Of a stretch of 36,405 nt of DNA, positions 5,804-14,623 are shown one piece after another. Source of the DNA: Nitrospinota bacterium (GTDB taxonomy: Bacteria; Nitrospinota; Nitrospinia; Nitrospinales; VA-1). Where the stretch lies: assembly GCA_009873635.1 (NCBI GenBank), contig WAHY01000001.1, positions 119,514-155,918 on the forward strand, read 5' to 3'. The notes under the pieces are model-generated. The model saw nothing but the letters and a program-made list of their open reading frames with translations. It was not told where the DNA came from and searched no databases. The first letter of the stretch is position 1. Every line of letters begins with the position of its first letter. The position numbers and the translations under genes were made by a program.

Positions 5804-6946
5804 ATGTTTTTATCAAAAAAAAGCCCATTAGTAGCCATTGATATCGGATCTTCTTCTATAAAGCTGGTTCAACTGAATGAGGTCAAGGATGGCCAATATG
5901 AACTGACCCGGTTTGGGATGATGCCGTTGGACCAGGAGTGTATTGTCGAGGGGGCCATCAAAAAACCGGAACTCGTCGCAGAAGCCCTGAAAAATTTAAT
6001 CAAAGCCGAAAAAATTCAAAATCGTTATGCCGTTTCTGCTGTTGCAGGTGAAGCCGTATTCATTAAGAAGATAAAAGTACCGGTGATGTCGGAAGAAGAG
6101 CTTTCTGCAAAGATCACTGAAGAGGCGGAGCAGTACATTCCTTTCGATATTGAAGATGTGGTACTCGATTTCCAGATTTTGGGGGAAGTGAATGAAGAGA
6201 AGGAAGAAGAATCTCAAGATTTAGAAGGCGCAGAAGTCGATAGGAATGACAAGGAAAGTGAAGAACACGGGGACTCACATGGTGGGGAACAAATGATGGA
6301 AGCCCTTTTGGTTGCGGTTCAAAGGGAAATGATCGATGAAAGAACAGATCTAATTCTTGATGCTGGCTTGAAACCGGCCATTATTGATTTGGATGTTTTT
6401 GCCTTGATGAACGCGGCTGGACTGAATGCTGATTTGTCTTCAATGGGAACTGTCGCCTTGATTGACCTGGGTGATTCCTTCACTCACATAAATATTATCC
6501 AGAATGGGGAAATGGGTTATACCCGGGACATTCCTGTTGGAGGAGGGTATCTGACAACCATGCTGATGACAAAATTCCGGATACCTTTTAAACAAACCAT
6601 AGATGTAAAAAGGGGGAAATTCTCGTCGGATATAAAAGAAGAAGAGGTCATTGAAATAATTACTCGAGCATATAAAAAAGTTTTGGAAGAGGTTCAAAAA
6701 TCATTTGAATACTTTAACACCCTTTCTGACAAACCCATTGAGAGAGTTTTGTTATGTGGAGGGGGAAGCATGATTCGAGGATTGGATAATTATTTTGCCG
6801 ACTACTTAAAGTTGTCTGTGGAGGTTCTGGATCCCATGCAGGGTGTCAAAATCAACCCTAAGAATTTTGATCAATCATTGATCGATGAAATGAGCGGGTT
6901 GTCTACAGTCGCTGTTGGTCTGGCTACAAGGAGGTTTGACTACTAA
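5804..6946 (+). CDS. pilM: Type IV pilus assembly ATPase-fold protein PilM
   Basis: A cytoplasmic actin-like (FtsA/ASKHA fold) protein that binds the N-terminal tail of PilN and links the alignment complex to the motor. Phosphate-1 motif AIDIGSSSIKLVQL is at residues 11-24, the phosphate-2 region is IDLGDSFTHINI, and the adenosine motif is LCGGGSMIRGLD near the C-terminus. At 380 residues it is slightly longer than typical PilM (about 350), because of a strongly acidic insertion at residues ~130-163 (EEKEEESQDLEGAE and following). It ends in TAATG, overlapping pilN by one base, with AAGGAGG (6928-6934) inside pilM serving pilN. It is first in the pilMNOPQQ-aroB cluster behind a sigma-54 promoter. 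Confidence 0.95.
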   Translation: MFLSKKSPLVAIDIGSSSIKLVQLNEVKDGQYELTRFGMMPLDQECIVEGAIKKPELVAEALKNLIKAEKIQNRYAVSAVAGEAVFIKKIKVPVMSEEELSAKITEEAEQYIPFDIEDVVLDFQILGEVNEEKEEESQDLEGAEVDRNDKESEEHGDSHGGEQMMEALLVAVQREMIDERTDLILDAGLKPAIIDLDVFALMNAAGLNADLSSMGTVALIDLGDSFTHINIIQNGEMGYTRDIPVGGGYLTTMLMTKFRIPFKQTIDVKRGKFSSDIKEEEVIEIITRAYKKVLEEVQKSFEYFNTLSDKPIERVLLCGGGSMIRGLDNYFADYLKLSVEVLDPMQGVKINPKNFDQSLIDEMSGLSTVAVGLATRRFDY

Positions 6947-7608
6947 TGATAAGAATCAATCTCCACGACTATAGGTATGAACTGAGAAAGATTGAAATCC
7001 AGAAACGTGTGGTCAAATGCTGCGCGGTTGTTATTGCTGCGATCTTTTTTATATTGGCTCTCTGGTTGATGGAGCAGGTTCGCCTGGATTCTGTAAGAAG
7101 CGAAACTCGTAAACTGGAATCCCAGGTGGCTGGTAAGAAAGGCCAATTTAAAAAAATCAAGGCCATGGAGTCCAGGCAAAAAAGGATGAAAACTATAATG
7201 GCGGGTATCGACAGTTTGAGAGAAAAACAGATGCCCGCTGGCACCATCGTTAGTGATTTAAACATGAACGTTCCCGACGGACTTTGGCTGACCTCCATTA
7301 TTCAGAGAGATTCAGACTATCTCAGGACTAAAAAGATACCGGTCATTATGTATGGCGATCCATCCAAGAAAAAGAAAAGAAGAAAAAGAAAAGGAAAAAA
7401 GAAGCAAGCTCTTCCAAAAGAATTTGTAGAGGTTTCGGGTTATTCCCTGAGCGAAGAGGGGGTGGCGGATTATATGAAAAGGATTCAAGAGTTCCCATAT
7501 TACAAAACCACATTCCTATATAAATCTACCCGGAGAATTATAGGAGGTCAGGGAATTCATAAATTTATTATTTATTGTTATATGCCGGAGAATAACAAAT
7601 CGGCTTAG
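6946..7608 (+). CDS. pilN: Type IV pilus assembly protein PilN
   Basis: Bitopic inner-membrane protein. The N-terminal MIRINLHDYR is the PilM-binding motif (family INLLPYR), followed by a membrane span at ~22-42, a coiled coil (~43-95) and a periplasmic ferredoxin-like domain that pairs with PilO. A polybasic insertion, 12 of 13 residues Lys or Arg, occupies 141-153, between VIMYGDPS and ALPKEFVEVSGYS, in the predicted periplasmic part. It corresponds to an almost purine-only DNA tract near 7368-7407. The length of 220 is somewhat above the usual ~190-200. It is translationally coupled to pilM and followed by pilO after 9 bases. Confidence 0.9.
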   Translation: MIRINLHDYRYELRKIEIQKRVVKCCAVVIAAIFFILALWLMEQVRLDSVRSETRKLESQVAGKKGQFKKIKAMESRQKRMKTIMAGIDSLREKQMPAGTIVSDLNMNVPDGLWLTSIIQRDSDYLRTKKIPVIMYGDPSKKKKRRKRKGKKKQALPKEFVEVSGYSLSEEGVADYMKRIQEFPYYKTTFLYKSTRRIIGGQGIHKFIIYCYMPENNKSA

Positions 7609-7617
7609 AAAACAGTT

Positions 7618-8295
7618 ATGGATAAGCTATTTGACAAACTACCCTATGATGACCTGGAAGGGATCCAGTTTACCCATATGCTGGGTGGGGCAATAGGTAT
7701 TGGGTTGATACTATTTCTAGGCTATTTCTTCACTTTGCACAGTTTTACCAATGAGGAATTTGAAAAACTTGTCAAGCAGAGGGAAGAAGCAGAAAGAACT
7801 CTGAAAAGATATAACTCTAAAATCGCGGAGAGAGGTTTGGTAGCTAAAAATATGTCTCGCGTTAAGGGTCAGTTTGAAGCGTATATCAACCAAATGCCCG
7901 ACCAGGACGAGATTCCGGGGTTGTTGGAGCAAATTGCGGAATTTGGGAAAAAAAGAAATATCAGGATGGTAGAGCTAACTTTGCAGGAAGGTGAAATCAG
8001 TGATTATTATAAAGAGATTCCTTTGAAAGTTGAGGTCAGTGGAGAGTTGTGGGTCACTCTTGATTTCATAGAATATATGCAGAACCTTTTGCGTTTGGTG
8101 AGTTTCGAAAACCTGATCTTACAAGGTCGTGATGTGGATAATAGAATCAGAGTTTCTGGTACTAATAGCAATTTTCTAAACACTACATTAACGGCAAAAA
8201 CCTATTCATTTATAAGTGGTGCTGAAAATCGCGGGCCGAAGAAAAAGGAACCGGCTAAGGCTAATAAACCGGCGAGAAAGAGGTCGGGGCATTAA
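7618..8295 (+). CDS. pilO: Type IV pilus assembly protein PilO
   Basis: Inner-membrane protein with a short cytoplasmic N-terminus, one membrane span (~20-40), a coiled coil (residues ~43-80, rich in Glu/Lys/Arg) and a periplasmic ferredoxin-like domain (GLLEQIAEFGKKRNIRMVEL, PLKVEVSGELWVTLDFIEYM). This layout is that of PilO, which heterodimerises with PilN and sets up the periplasmic frame of the pilus machine. The last ~20 residues form a basic Lys/Pro/Ala tail (KKKEPAKANKPARKRSGH), unusual for the family. Position between pilN and the PilP-domain gene supports the call. Confidence 0.9.
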   Translation: MDKLFDKLPYDDLEGIQFTHMLGGAIGIGLILFLGYFFTLHSFTNEEFEKLVKQREEAERTLKRYNSKIAERGLVAKNMSRVKGQFEAYINQMPDQDEIPGLLEQIAEFGKKRNIRMVELTLQEGEISDYYKEIPLKVEVSGELWVTLDFIEYMQNLLRLVSFENLILQGRDVDNRIRVSGTNSNFLNTTLTAKTYSFISGAENRGPKKKEPAKANKPARKRSGH

Positions 8296-8320
8296 GACTA
8301 ATTAGAGAGTGATGTTAAAT

Positions 8321-9805
8321 ATGAAACCTGGATTTAATCTGAAAGTTCTTCTTGTTATAGGGATAACTTTTCTGGGAATGCAGCCAGTATTGGTTTCAGC
8401 TTTACCCGCTAAGGTTCAGGAGGATTTGCGTTCTCGAAATTATAAGCTCAATACCCTTTTCAGGCTTAGTGGCCTTGATGACACTCTGAAGAATGTAGAA
8501 AATATTGCTCAGATGGCAGGTAATATTCGTGAGGATGCCCTGGCTCCCGGGCAGGAAGAATTTGCGAGAGGGCTCATAAGCCAGGCAATTTCTTCCAGAA
8601 GTTTTTATCGCTTGCTGAAGCAGCCTTTTTATGATGATTACAAACCTGAATATGCCCGCTCTGCGATTCAATGGTATCGAAGTCCGTTGGGCAAAAAAAT
8701 ATTAAGACTCGAAAATGAAGCGAGTGATCCCTCCAAAAGTCCTGATAAACAATCTTTTTTAAAAAAATTGTTGGGTTCTCCACCAAGCGAAAAGCGCATT
8801 GGAAGGGTGGAAAACATTGAACGCAATTCTTATGTGACCGGGGCTGGAAAAAAACTTTTTCTGGCATATGTCAAACTGATGCAGCCCTTTAATAGGAAGT
8901 TTGAAGGGAAAAAATTAAGCAAGGTTTTGAGATCACTGGGTAAGAACATTACGGAGCCTATGCGGGAAGTTGTTTTGAGAAACCTTCTCTTTAGCTACAG
9001 AAGTTTGAGTGATAAAGAGATTGAAGAATATGCCGGTTTTTTAAGCTCACCTTCGGGAAACTGGTTCAACCAGACTTTATTAACAGGTTTTGATAAAGGG
9101 CTTAGAAAAGCTTCCTACAAGGCAGGTCTCATTCAAGTTAAGTTGTTAGAAGAGATTGACTCGGGTGGTCCAGAGTATCCTTTATTAAAGGATATGGTTC
9201 CACCTGGTCAAAGATATTTGCTGATTGGAAGGAGAGACCCTTTCCGGCCTTTGGTGAACTCCCAGGGTCTGATAGATTTTTCTGAAGAACAACCGCCCGT
9301 TTCAGTGGCTCGTTTGTTTGGTGGTGAGTTAAAGGATATACCACCGGTTGCCCTGCTGGTATTTAAGAAAATTGAAGACCAGCATCCTGAACTTTACAGA
9401 AAGTTAAAGAAATTTGAACGTTTGTTTAATAACCAGGATGAATTGGAAGAACTTGATGACGAGGAATATGCACAGGTTGTAGAAGATTATCGTGATGCGC
9501 TTGAAAGGTCATCTAATATTTATATGGATGAGTCCCCTTTGCAGGTTGAGTATGACACCCTTCGTATGACTGGAATAATCAAGAAAAAAATGGAAGTATC
9601 GGCAATGTTTGAGGTTGGTTCAACAGGTTATACGGTGAAAAAGGGTGACCGAATTGGTCCTTTCTTTGGATATGTGGAAGAAATTCAGAATGGTCAGGTG
9701 GTTGTGATTGAACAGTTCAGAGACTATCTCGGTAATATCCTGACAAACCAAAAAATTATCCAGTTTTACCAGGGTTCACCTGACGAGGGCAATACGAACT
9801 CATGA
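8321..9805 (+). CDS. pilP: PilP-domain pilotin-like protein fused to DUF2059-like repeats
   Basis: Exported protein of about 494 residues, far longer than normal PilP (~175). A signal peptide (LKVLLVIGITFLGMQPVLVSA) is followed by ~280 residues with two DUF2059-like motifs: AIQWYRSPLGKKILRLE and EEYAGFLSSPSGNWFNQTLL, matching the family's 'FYrSPlGkK' signature. The C-terminal ~190 residues are PilP-like: GRRDPFRPLV, then LRMTGIIKKKMEVSAMFEVG, GYTVKKGDRIGPFFGYVEEI and VVVIEQFRDYLGN. PilP connects PilNO to the PilQ secretin. The ATG at 8321 is preferred for its signal peptide and AGAGAG 11 bases upstream; in-frame GTG 8309 and ATG 8312 are alternatives. Its stop overlaps the first pilQ start (ATGA). 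Confidence 0.85.
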   Translation: MKPGFNLKVLLVIGITFLGMQPVLVSALPAKVQEDLRSRNYKLNTLFRLSGLDDTLKNVENIAQMAGNIREDALAPGQEEFARGLISQAISSRSFYRLLKQPFYDDYKPEYARSAIQWYRSPLGKKILRLENEASDPSKSPDKQSFLKKLLGSPPSEKRIGRVENIERNSYVTGAGKKLFLAYVKLMQPFNRKFEGKKLSKVLRSLGKNITEPMREVVLRNLLFSYRSLSDKEIEEYAGFLSSPSGNWFNQTLLTGFDKGLRKASYKAGLIQVKLLEEIDSGGPEYPLLKDMVPPGQRYLLIGRRDPFRPLVNSQGLIDFSEEQPPVSVARLFGGELKDIPPVALLVFKKIEDQHPELYRKLKKFERLFNNQDELEELDDEEYAQVVEDYRDALERSSNIYMDESPLQVEYDTLRMTGIIKKKMEVSAMFEVGSTGYTVKKGDRIGPFFGYVEEIQNGQVVVIEQFRDYLGNILTNQKIIQFYQGSPDEGNTNS

Positions 9806-9809
9806 GAAA
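9788..9809 (+). repeat. 22-base direct repeat, copy 1 (pilP end / pilQ start)
   Basis: A 22-base sequence from GGCAATACG to ATGAGAAA is identical to 11650-11671. Here it encodes the last residues of the PilP-like protein (GNTNS, stop) and the start of the first pilQ. Copy 2, before the second pilQ, lies outside any pilP frame. It therefore marks the left boundary of the tandem duplication. Confidence 0.85.
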
Positions 9810-11610
9810 TCTCATGTCCAATAAACCTCATTGCTTTATGAAGATATTTCTTATGTTTTTGCTGGCAGTTATGCCGGTTTCTGAAGTGTCTTCTGCTGGT
9901 GGATCCCTGGGGGAAATAGTTTCTCTTAACACCGAGGAAGAAGGACGAGGCTCTATCATTTCCATCGAGTCCACGCGCCCTTTCCAATACACCGCGTTCA
10001 AACTTCTTAATCCACTCCGTTTGGTTCTGGATTTTCCGGAAATGGACCAGGGAAGCTTGACCAGTAATATTCAGGTGAATAAAGGTTTTGTAAAATCAAT
10101 TCGACCCGTTCACTTTAAAGAGGCAGGTGTTTTACGCCTGGAAATTGTTCTCAATCAACCTGTCGATTATGAAATCAAAAAACAGAATAAGAATAAATTG
10201 ATGGTCAGTTTGTTGTCCTCAGAGAGATTGCAAAATGAGGAAATGGCTCAGTCTTCCCCAGTGAATTCTCTTGCCAGCGAAGTTGCAAATAAAGAAGAAG
10301 TTGTTGCCGATGGTCTAAAGGACGATGGAAACAGAGATACATGTTTCCCCATGTTGTACGGAGAAAAAGAAACGATTTCCCTTGATTTTCAAAACGCTGA
10401 TGTGCGCAACTTTTTCAGAACATTTTCAGAGATCAGTGGATTCAATATTATTATTTCTCCGGAAGTCAGTGGTACCTTAAGCATCAGGCTGAATGATGTT
10501 CCTTGGAACGAGGCGTTGGAAATCGCTCTCTCCAACATCAATTTAGGCAGGGAGTGTTTTGATAACAATTTTGTCCGCATAGCAAGCAATACAGTTCTTG
10601 CTGCGGAGGAAAGTGAGCGGGTGGCTGAAAAAGCCCGTTCGGCGGCTGAGAGAGCCAATGAGCAGAATGCGCAAGCTCTGGTCACCGAGGTGATCCGCGT
10701 AAACAATGCAAACATAACTACACTTGCGGCAAATCTTAATGCATTAAAGAGTTCTCGTACAGATGCTCAAATAACTGTGGATATAAGAACCAATACGCTT
10801 ATATTAAATGACCTGCGCAAGCATGTGAACGATATGCTGGAGACGATCAGGGTGCTGGATGTTCCCACTGCCCAGGTTGCGATTGAATCGAAAATCGTGA
10901 ATATCACCAAGACTTATGCCCAGAGGTTGGGAATTCAATGGGGAGTCACCCGCCCGGTGACAGGCGCTGGCACTGGAGTAGGGCAAACCATAGGGGTCAC
11001 GGGTTCGGATGGGGATGGAGATAATTTTATAGTGGAATTGGGAAAGACTTTCACAGCTGGATCTACCAGTGGGTTTGGTTTGACACTGGGTAATTTTATC
11101 AACGGGGCGGGTCTGAATATTGCCTTGCAGGCATTGGAGACAGACGGCAAAACCCGGATCCTTTCCAGCCCCAGGGTTGTCGTCGCGGATAATAAAGAAG
11201 CCCGGATCTCATCCGGTAAACAGATTCCCTATCAGGTGACTACGGCAGAGGGTAACTCGATTGATTTTGCGAATGCTGAACTCAGCCTCACTGTTGTCCC
11301 TCATGTGACTTCTGATGACCGGATTTATATGACCATTGACACGACAAAGAACTCTGTTGACGAGACAGTTACCGTCCAAGGCGTTCCGGTTATTTCAACT
11401 AAGGAGACGCATACGGAAGTTCTGGTGGGGGATGGTGACACTACCGTTTTAGCCGGGCTCTACGAGAGCACAATTGATGAAAAAACAAGTAAGGTGCCGC
11501 TGTTCTCTGAAATCCCTTTATTGGGTTACTTGTTTAGAAACTACGAAGATACAGACACTCTTGGGGAGCTTATGGTGTTTATCACTCCGACTATTGTTAA
11601 AATGAATTGA
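9802..11610 (+). CDS. pilQ: Type IV pilus secretin PilQ, copy 1
   Basis: Outer-membrane secretin through which the pilus passes. An N-terminal signal (FLMFLLAVMPVSEVSSA) is followed by one AMIN domain (residues ~35-130, peptidoglycan-binding) and a linker. Next come an STN/N0 domain (ISLDFQNADVRNFFRTFSEI, ~195-265), an N1-type domain (LVTEVIRVNNANITTLAANL, ~290-350) and the C-terminal secretin beta-barrel (~360-600). The barrel ends in VPLFSEIPLLGYLFRNYEDT and GELMVFITPTIV. The length of 602 is within the normal range. The start at 9802 overlaps the pilP stop; an internal ATG at 9838 would also leave a usable signal peptide. It is followed by a close paralogue. Confidence 0.95.
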   Translation: MRNLMSNKPHCFMKIFLMFLLAVMPVSEVSSAGGSLGEIVSLNTEEEGRGSIISIESTRPFQYTAFKLLNPLRLVLDFPEMDQGSLTSNIQVNKGFVKSIRPVHFKEAGVLRLEIVLNQPVDYEIKKQNKNKLMVSLLSSERLQNEEMAQSSPVNSLASEVANKEEVVADGLKDDGNRDTCFPMLYGEKETISLDFQNADVRNFFRTFSEISGFNIIISPEVSGTLSIRLNDVPWNEALEIALSNINLGRECFDNNFVRIASNTVLAAEESERVAEKARSAAERANEQNAQALVTEVIRVNNANITTLAANLNALKSSRTDAQITVDIRTNTLILNDLRKHVNDMLETIRVLDVPTAQVAIESKIVNITKTYAQRLGIQWGVTRPVTGAGTGVGQTIGVTGSDGDGDNFIVELGKTFTAGSTSGFGLTLGNFINGAGLNIALQALETDGKTRILSSPRVVVADNKEARISSGKQIPYQVTTAEGNSIDFANAELSLTVVPHVTSDDRIYMTIDTTKNSVDETVTVQGVPVISTKETHTEVLVGDGDTTVLAGLYESTIDEKTSKVPLFSEIPLLGYLFRNYEDTDTLGELMVFITPTIVKMN

Positions 11611-11649
11611 TCCAGGTTGCAGGGTTACGTTTAAGGCTTGTTTAAAAAA

Positions 11650-11671
11650 GGCAATACGAACTCATGAGAAA
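11650..11671 (+). repeat. 22-base direct repeat, copy 2 (before second pilQ)
   Basis: Identical to 9788-9809. It supplies the ATG of the second pilQ and carries a relic of the pilP 3' coding end, which shows that the duplicated unit began inside pilP. Confidence 0.85.
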
Positions 11672-13475
11672 ATTAATGTTCAAAAAACCTCGTTACTTCA
11701 TGAAGATATTTCTTTTGTTGTTGCTGGCAGTTTTGCCGGTTTCTGAAGTATCTTCTGCGGGTGGATCTTTGGGGGAAATTGTTTCTCTAAATACTCGCGA
11801 AGAAGGGCAAAGCTCTATTGTTTCGATTGAGTCGACCCAACCGGTTCAATACACCGCATTTAAACTTCTTAATCCGCTCCGTTTGGTTTTGGATTTCCCC
11901 AAAATGGATCAAGGAAACTTAACCAGCCGTATACAGGTAGACAAGGGAATTATAGATTCTATCCGCCCGATTCACTTTAAAGAAGCAGGTGTTTTACGCC
12001 TGGAAATTGTTCTCAACCAGTCATCGGATTATGAAATTCAGAAACAGGGTGAGAAAAAATTAATCATTTCCCTTCAATCTTCTAAACAAGAATCAGGACA
12101 GCGCCTGGCGATGTCCGAGGAATCCGCTGCGTCAAGCGAGGCCGGGGCTGAGAATGATACCTCCAGGGAAGCAAATGTAGAAAAGGATACTTGTTTTAAG
12201 ATGTTACGTGGAGAAAAGGAGCCCATTTCCCTGGATTTCCAGAATATTAATATTCGTAACGCGTTTAACATCTTCGAAGATATCAGTGGTTACAATTTCG
12301 TTCTTTCCCCTGAAGTAGCTGGGGAGGTAAATATCAGGATGGCAGATGTGCCATGGAATAAGGCCATGGAGATCATTCTTGCAAATGCAGGTTTGGGGCG
12401 GGAATGTTTTGGTAATAATATTATCCGTGTTGCCCAAAAATCGGTGTTTGTCGCGGAGGGACGTGCAAGAATTTTAGAAAAATCCAGAGCGGCTACCGAG
12501 CGCGCCAATCGAGAAGCAGAACAGGATCTGGTCACCGAAGTGGTGCGGATTGATAATGCGAATATCACCGATCTTTCAGCAACTCTCACCGCTCTTAAAA
12601 GCCCACGTCCTGATGCCACCATTACCGTGGATACACGCACCAATAAGCTAATTCTGAATGATCTGCGAAAAAATGTGGATGATATGCTGGAGACCATAAG
12701 GGTTCTGGATGTTCCAACGCCTCAAGTTTTGATAGAGGCGAAGATTGTTGAATTATCCAGAGAATATGCCAAGGAACTGGGGATTCAGTGGGGCCTGGCT
12801 GGTGAAATAATACCGGGAACACCCGGATCATTAACTCTTGTTGATCCCACCAATGCTACTGCCAGCACGAATAGTAATTTTCTCGTAGACTTACAACAGA
12901 CTACCAGCGTTAGTGGATTCGATTTATTTCTGGGTAATGTGCTTCCCGGGTTAAAACTGAATGCGGTTTTGAATGCCCTGGAAACCATAGACAAATCAAG
13001 AACGATTTCCAGCCCCCGAGTTGTCGTGGCGGATAATAAAGAAGCCCGTTTTGAAAGCGGAGAGCAAATCCCCTATCTGGTATCTTCAGCCGAAGGAAAC
13101 TCTGTACAATTTTATGATGCAAATATCAGTCTCACGGTCACTCCACATGTCACTTTTGAAAACCAGGTATATATGACCATTGATACAACAAAAAATGGCA
13201 GAGGAAATAATGTTACTTTTAGGATTCCAGGAGGTAACACCACGGACTTACCGATCATTACAACCAATGAATCACATACAGAAGTATTAGTTGGCAATGG
13301 AGACACGACCGCTTTAGGTGGAATCTTCGAAACCACCGAAGTCGAATCCAATAAGGCAGTACCTCTTTTCTCAAAAATACCTATTCTGGGATATTTGTTT
13401 AGAAGTTTTAAAGATACACAAGACGATACCGAACTTATGGTGTTTATCACTCCTACCATCATTGAAACAAATTGA
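11664..13475 (+). CDS. pilQ: Type IV pilus secretin PilQ, copy 2
   Basis: A full-length 603-residue paralogue with the same order as copy 1: signal peptide, one AMIN domain, STN/N0 (ISLDFQNINIRNAFNIFEDI), N1 (LVTEVVRIDNANITDLSATL) and a secretin barrel ending VPLFSKIPILGYLFRSFKDT and ELMVFITPTIIETN. The first ~130 residues are almost identical to copy 1, with many DNA differences at third codon positions. The inter-domain linker and the barrel segment after the ELGIQWG region differ most. All hallmark motifs are intact with no frameshift, so both copies should be functional. Whether they form a mixed ring or are alternatives is not visible. Confidence 0.95.
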   Translation: MRKLMFKKPRYFMKIFLLLLLAVLPVSEVSSAGGSLGEIVSLNTREEGQSSIVSIESTQPVQYTAFKLLNPLRLVLDFPKMDQGNLTSRIQVDKGIIDSIRPIHFKEAGVLRLEIVLNQSSDYEIQKQGEKKLIISLQSSKQESGQRLAMSEESAASSEAGAENDTSREANVEKDTCFKMLRGEKEPISLDFQNINIRNAFNIFEDISGYNFVLSPEVAGEVNIRMADVPWNKAMEIILANAGLGRECFGNNIIRVAQKSVFVAEGRARILEKSRAATERANREAEQDLVTEVVRIDNANITDLSATLTALKSPRPDATITVDTRTNKLILNDLRKNVDDMLETIRVLDVPTPQVLIEAKIVELSREYAKELGIQWGLAGEIIPGTPGSLTLVDPTNATASTNSNFLVDLQQTTSVSGFDLFLGNVLPGLKLNAVLNALETIDKSRTISSPRVVVADNKEARFESGEQIPYLVSSAEGNSVQFYDANISLTVTPHVTFENQVYMTIDTTKNGRGNNVTFRIPGGNTTDLPIITTNESHTEVLVGNGDTTALGGIFETTEVESNKAVPLFSKIPILGYLFRSFKDTQDDTELMVFITPTIIETN

Positions 13476-13552: not shown

Positions 13553-14623
13553 ATGAAACGCTTAAGCATTGACCTGGGTGAAAGAAGTTATGACATTCTT
13601 ATCGGCTCGGGTCTCAGGAAACAGACTGGCGAGTTACTCAACGCTGTATTAAAACCCAGTCGGGTTGTAATAATCACTCACCCTTCTATCAACAGCCTCT
13701 ATGGCGAAGTTGTGTCCAACAGTTTTATGGCTCAAGGTTGGGATACGGATACCATTGAAGTTCCTGAAGGTGAATCTTCCAAGAATCTTGGTCAGGCTGA
13801 AAAGCTGTTTGACAGACTGTTAGAGTTAAATTGTGACAGGAAGTCCCTGCTGGTTGCTTTAGGAGGTGGAGTGATTGGGGATTTAGTGGGTTTTGTGGCG
13901 GCGACTTATCAGAGAGGCGTTCCTTTCATACAGATCCCGACAACTTTGCTTTCCCAGGTAGATAGCAGTGTGGGAGGAAAAACGGCGGTCAATCATCCCA
14001 AGGGGAAAAATATGATCGGGGCGTTTTACCAACCGCGACTAGTAGTGATTGACCTGGAAACTCTCAGAACACTTCCCCAAAAAGAATACCGGGCAGGTCT
14101 TGCCGAAATAGTTAAATATGGTGTCATCGCTGATGCAAAACTCTTTGAGTTTCTGGAAACCAATTATAAGAAGATCCTGAATCTCGATTTCGAATGCCTT
14201 TCACATATTATTGAAACCTCATGTGCGATCAAGGCAAAAGTGGTTGAAAAGGATGAAAGAGAAAGTCATTACAGGATGATTCTGAACTTTGGTCATACAT
14301 TTGGCCACGCCATCGAATCATTGACGAATTATTCCAGGTTCATACATGGTGAAGCGGTGTCGATAGGAATGGTGCATGCTGCGGAGCTTTCTCATTCAAT
14401 GGGAAAATGCTCGAAAGACATTCCGGTTCGCCTTGCGGCTTTGTTGAAAAACCTGGGACTTCCTGTTGATATGCCGAACCTCGATACAGCATCAGTAGTT
14501 GGTTCTTTGTATCATGATAAAAAAACAATGGATCGTAAAATAAAGTTTATCCTGGTTAATGAGATAGGTTCAATTGAAATAGCGGACCAGGTTTTGGAAG
14601 AAGAAATTCTGAAAGTGTTTTGA
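13553..14623 (+). CDS. aroB: 3-dehydroquinate synthase AroB
   Basis: Second enzyme of the shikimate pathway: NAD- and Zn-dependent cyclisation of DAHP to 3-dehydroquinate in the cytoplasm. The NAD-binding glycine motif is ALGGGVIGDLVGFVAATYQR (~102-121), followed by the conserved PTTLLSQVDSSVGGKTAVN region. Metal ligands are Glu185 (AGLAEIVKYG), His248 (FGHTFGHAIE) and His265 (IHGEAVSIGM). The length of 356 is normal. It follows pilQ by 77 bases; pilQ-aroK-aroB is a classical order in proteobacteria, but aroK is absent here and pilQ is doubled. Confidence 0.97.
   Translation: MKRLSIDLGERSYDILIGSGLRKQTGELLNAVLKPSRVVIITHPSINSLYGEVVSNSFMAQGWDTDTIEVPEGESSKNLGQAEKLFDRLLELNCDRKSLLVALGGGVIGDLVGFVAATYQRGVPFIQIPTTLLSQVDSSVGGKTAVNHPKGKNMIGAFYQPRLVVIDLETLRTLPQKEYRAGLAEIVKYGVIADAKLFEFLETNYKKILNLDFECLSHIIETSCAIKAKVVEKDERESHYRMILNFGHTFGHAIESLTNYSRFIHGEAVSIGMVHAAELSHSMGKCSKDIPVRLAALLKNLGLPVDMPNLDTASVVGSLYHDKKTMDRKIKFILVNEIGSIEIADQVLEEEILKVF

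Follow-up and report, generated by a model that had tools for sequence, protein, structure and literature searches.

Type IVa pilus loci of this bacterial genus typically carry one pilQ gene, and the locus described here carries two, which raises the question of where the second copy came from and whether both secretins serve the same pilus machine. The window, that is, the whole 36,405-nucleotide stretch analysed (C1:119514-155918 of genome G000), belongs to a 2.62-Mb MAG in 54 contigs with a completeness of 95% and a contamination of 0.55%. The host is a marine, Nitrospina-like bacterium represented by a Nitrospinaceae MAG, and the relatives returned by an alignment scan were Nitrospina sp. 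(including Nitrospina sp. LS_NOB) and Nitrospinaceae MAGs.

Two complete PilQ genes between pilP and aroB

The genes run on the forward strand in the order pilM-N-O-P-Q-Q-aroB, with pilM at 5804..6946 (Pfam PilM_2, 217.7 bits), pilN at 6946..7608 (Pfam PilN), pilO at 7618..8295 (Pfam PilO), pilP at 8309..9805 (498 aa, Pfam PilP and DUF2059), pilQ-A at 9802..11610 (602 aa), pilQ-B at 11664..13475 (603 aa), and aroB, also the next gene after pilQ in congeners, at 13553..14623 (Pfam DHQ_synthase). In PilP, the DUF2059 match precedes the PilP domain, and the length of the protein is common to congeners. The last 4 bases of pilP are shared with the start of pilQ-A, and a 53-nt spacer (11611..11663) separates the two pilQ genes, in which a consensus scan gave no promoter-like and no terminator-like site. 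A reading made from the sequence alone had described two intact PilQ genes of about 600 residues lying back to back, and this description holds. Both proteins consist of a signal peptide, AMIN, N0, N1, and secretin domains; the Pfam AMIN, Secretin_N, and Secretin models all match above their cut-offs and in the expected order, the short STN and N0 models falling in places near or below theirs, and the NCBIfam PilQ model TIGR02515 scores 349.6 bits for pilQ-A and 330.4 bits for pilQ-B against a cut-off of 284.35. Together with the pilMNOPQ operon context, these matches identify both as PilQ. The two proteins are 62% identical. AlphaFold monomers of low confidence (pTM 0.31-0.32) agree with the domain order, and that of pilQ-B, at the same low confidence, places a helix at residues 197-208 within N0.

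Origin of the two copies

Twelve of the 16 genomes sampled from the genus, including G000, carry the pilMNOPQ locus, and all 11 others have a single pilQ there, encoding 634-669 aa, followed by aroB. This duplication is genuine and, within the genus, out of the ordinary: the two genes are adjacent and in the same orientation, and the relatives have one copy. In a tree of 47 PilQs built on all columns, the two copies joined each other (SH-aLRT 90) and grouped with those of G003 and G013 inside the genus clade (SH-aLRT 98). Removing the 5' tract described below left pilQ-A, pilQ-B, G003, and G013 together (96/99) and reduced the support for joining the two copies to 59/29. The same four sequences were united in a barrel-only tree (96/97) and grouped in a secretin-core tree (support 96-97), and the union of the two copies was not rejected in N0-N1 (AU test, p 0.39) or in the barrel (p 0.30). 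In addition, a stretch of about 50 residues between the signal peptide and AMIN, which is present in congeners, is absent from both copies, an absence either inherited or spread by conversion. Because both copies fall inside the genus PilQ clade, they very probably arose by tandem duplication within the lineage, as the sequence-only reading had proposed, and not from different lineages. The duplication is about as old as the split of the host lineage from its nearest sampled relatives, G003 and G013; given the low support for the pair once the 5' tract is left out, it may also have preceded that split and been followed by loss in those relatives.

A conserved start region and a homogenised 5' tract

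The same reading had drawn attention to an exact 22-base repeat, GGCAATACGAACTCATGAGAAA, covering the end of pilP and the start of pilQ-A (9788..9809) and recurring at the start of pilQ-B (11650..11671). The repeat is there: it occurs exactly twice in the window, each time spanning a start codon, no further site was found in the window even with up to 4 mismatches, and by our own arithmetic about 4e-5 exact 22-base repeats would be expected by chance in 36 kb. It had been taken for the preserved boundary of the duplication, and here the comparison with congeners led to a different view, since nine of the 11 carry the 22-mer at their own pilP/pilQ overlap with 1-3 mismatches. A duplication scar as sole explanation was therefore rejected, and the repeat is better described as a genus-wide pilQ start region than as a neutral scar. 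In the 20 bases 5' of the pilQ start, identity is 0.71 among congeners and 0.80 for the two copies. Further upstream, the two copies are unrelated (0.30), whereas the sequence ahead of pilQ-A, which is pilP coding sequence, is still 0.57 identical to that of congeners. From the conservation of these 20 bases in congeners and the mismatch beyond them, the repeat would be a start region kept by function, by conversion, or by both. The two copies cease to match about 20 bases before the pilQ-B start, inside the counterpart of the pilP end, and a duplicated unit beginning inside pilP, as first suggested, is plausible from this alignment.

The first 12 pilQ codons are conserved even from congener to congener (pS 0.18), but in codons 13-31 the pS is 0.07 between the two copies versus about 0.62 between congeners. 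A segment test on third-position identity, which answers the earlier call for a gene-conversion test at the 5' end, singled out codons 5-41 (9814..9924 in pilQ-A and 11676..11786 in pilQ-B, both forward) as having significantly lower silent divergence (permutation P = 0.0014; second-best segment, P = 0.10). Only about these codons look homogenised, as by gene conversion. Across the first 120 nt the DNA of the copies is about 80-93% identical, and at the protein level the copies agree at 74% of positions in the signal-peptide region (residues 1-31).

Divergence by domain

Over their whole length the copies differ by a pN of 0.255 versus a pS of 0.693, values which indicate that both are under purifying selection; neither is decaying. 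Relative-rate comparisons with four outgroups gave 67-74 changes unique to pilQ-A and 58-69 unique to pilQ-B (p 0.16-0.93), that is, equal rates. At columns invariant in the 11 congeners, 17 departures are found in pilQ-A only and 19 in pilQ-B only, and they are rarely shared; these counts are roughly what independence predicts, and complementary loss at conserved sites is not claimed. At about 1.8 times the reference (congener slope 0.90), the whole-protein rate does not exceed the range covered by single congeners (0.32-3.11), and G000 is itself fast, with a reference tip of 0.26 versus 0.11-0.12 in G003 and G013. Outside the 5' tract, third positions and silent sites are saturated between the copies; dN/dS by domain is therefore not properly measurable, and we used orthologue-calibrated branch lengths in its place, estimated for each domain on a fixed species tree relative to PilM/N/O/P/AroB.

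In AMIN, the copies are as alike as ordinary orthologues (0.79 between the copies, 0.78 between congeners). The notion that this domain is unusually conserved was therefore rejected, and the AMIN contrast lends no support to selection on a shared peptidoglycan anchor; nor are the signal peptide and AMIN nearly identical, as had been stated, at 74 and 79%. N1 is equally ordinary (0.76 versus 0.75), and the relative branch lengths of AMIN and N1 are ordinary in both copies. N0, on the other hand, is 0.60 identical between the copies versus 0.86 between congeners. Extra divergence in the pore half, in line with the sequence-only reading, was found in the variable region at residues 359-443 (0.41 versus 0.55) and in the barrel at residues 444-602 (0.62 versus 0.78). 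Relative branch lengths of the barrel are raised (1.22 in pilQ-A and 1.68 in pilQ-B, congener slope 0.44) and within the congener range (maximum 3.52), whereas those of N0 are 1.37 and 1.67, with congeners giving a slope of 0.39 and reaching at most 1.53. Only N0 is near or above the congener maximum. Judged by these comparisons, N0 and to some extent the barrel account for the excess divergence; N0, on which the sequence-only reading was silent, deviates most from what orthologues show.

The fast-diverging N0 spans residues 186-262 in pilQ-A (10357..10587, forward) and approximately residues 182-258 in pilQ-B (12207..12437, forward) and includes the first helix, where the genus sequence ADVRNLFRIFAEIS has become ADVRNFFRTFSEIS in pilQ-A and INIRNAFNIFEDIS in pilQ-B. 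Neisseria PilQ binds PilP through the part of N0 around the first helix and strand (PMC3441751). The C-terminal domain of the G000 PilP shows no acceleration (0.72 versus 0.73).

Discussion

The explanation that we favor, and regard as probable taken as a whole, begins with a tandem duplication of the type IVa pilus secretin gene within the lineage, giving two co-oriented pilQ genes. Both copies would be translated from one operon, each with its own conserved pilQ start region, and a short gene conversion would have homogenised the 5' ends. The two products would dock on the same PilP/PilN/PilO platform and form either mixed rings or alternative homomeric rings, and the divergence of N0, which extends to the first helix (in Neisseria PilQ, PilP docks on this side), would tune the coupling of each copy to the machine in the inner membrane. 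A genome search of G000 recovered one PilO and two T2SSF proteins, one on contig C10 next to two shorter T2SSE-family ATPases that are inferred from their size to be PilT-like, and the other on contig C7, where its neighbours are a T2SSE ATPase and a further secretin. The search gave no second type IV pilus platform in the sequence of this MAG, from which, at 95% completeness, one could be missing. With one PilO and one platform found, both secretins are most simply placed on one machine, and we hold such sharing to be somewhat favored. Either different pores or a mixed ring, as first envisaged, may apply, and mixed and alternative rings appear about equally likely.

Two other readings of the divergence are each rather unlikely in our judgment. 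The copies may be functionally equivalent, mixing freely and drifting under relaxed but purifying selection after a neutral or dosage duplication, with which the symmetric rates, the apparent independence of departures at conserved sites, and the orthologue-like divergence of AMIN and N1 agree; against this, the departures are concentrated by domain in N0 and barrel, and both genes are still intact although third positions have reached saturation. Alternatively, each PilQ might build its own homomeric ring with different partners, for example for pilus extension versus DNA uptake or secretion. Type IV filament systems commonly use a distinct secretin for each filament, and N0 and barrel are the parts that diverge here, but the single PilO, the single platform found, and the spacer devoid of promoter-like sites argue against two machines or two conditions of expression.

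Explanations that deny a duplication within the lineage fare worse. Acquisition of one copy from another lineage by horizontal transfer is very unlikely: the copies do separate when N0-N1 is analysed alone, though their union is not rejected by the AU test, but both go with G003 and G013 in barrel and secretin core and both lack the pre-AMIN stretch. Still less credible is an assembly artefact or strain chimera. G000 is a MAG, and an assembler might conceivably be led astray by the 22-base repeat; yet what precedes pilQ-B is the spacer after pilQ-A and not a second pilP end, the copies are too distant for strain variants, the assembly has 54 contigs and 0.55% contamination, and tandem pilQ genes occur independently in four other genomes, including the single-contig G037.

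A scan of the phylum (PilQ matches at E <= 1e-70) found two matches in five of the 53 Nitrospinota genomes with a match, in tandem in every case: G000; G037, G040, and G050, each a different species of the same genus; and G052. In the G037, G040, and G050 pairs and in the G052 pair, the copies are sisters and keep their positions when the partner is left out, on which basis at least three tandem pilQ events appear to have taken place in Nitrospinota. As in G000, the two PilQ-type secretins of these four genomes lie between pilP and aroB, but their second copy lacks AMIN (L058, L061, L071, and L072), whereas both copies keep it in G000, and the events are independent.

Other rearrangements of PilP and PilQ domains were also seen. 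Between pilP and pilQ, genus g3 encodes an AMIN-N0-N1-PilP protein and G038 an N0-N0-PilP protein (L047:5963-7549, L050:8832-10478, L052:4882-6528, and L059:4803-6329). Five congeners carry, away from pilMNOPQ, a fusion of two PilQ-type N0 domains to a PilP C-terminal domain (L093:1204-2508, L131, L132, L133, and L134); in the two neighbourhoods read, those of G009 and G013, it adjoins genes for a family 9 glycosyltransferase and an FkbM methyltransferase, and it was not found in G000. Such PilQ-N0/PilP chimeras point to the same PilP-PilQ joint.

Secretins of solved structure are generally regarded as rings of a single kind of subunit. A bolder, tentative, and less likely proposal is that the two paralogues, with different PilP-docking faces, form a mixed ring on one platform, a hetero-oligomeric secretin. 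It would then be one of several cases in which the PilP-PilQ joint has been remodelled in Nitrospinota, counting the three tandem pilQ events and the PilQ-N0/PilP chimeras. One pilus machine may have two different pore subunits at its disposal, and paired PilQs beside one machine, which appear to have at least three origins in one phylum, make mixed secretin rings and control by N0-PilP docking testable.

Our search of the open-access literature found no study of tandem pilQ. For the xanthomonad Xcv, "two pilQ orthologs" are mentioned (PMC3071791), an extra pilQ where relatives have one, as in G000. Among the closest known systems is the type IVa pilus PilQ (TIGR02515), which has the same AMIN, N0, N1, and secretin order and the same pilMNOPQ operon as both copies described here, and whose relatives in the PDB (3jc8, 6w6m, 6ve2, and 4av2) match in sequence across the secretin half; in G000, by contrast, one operon holds a tandem of two full-length copies.
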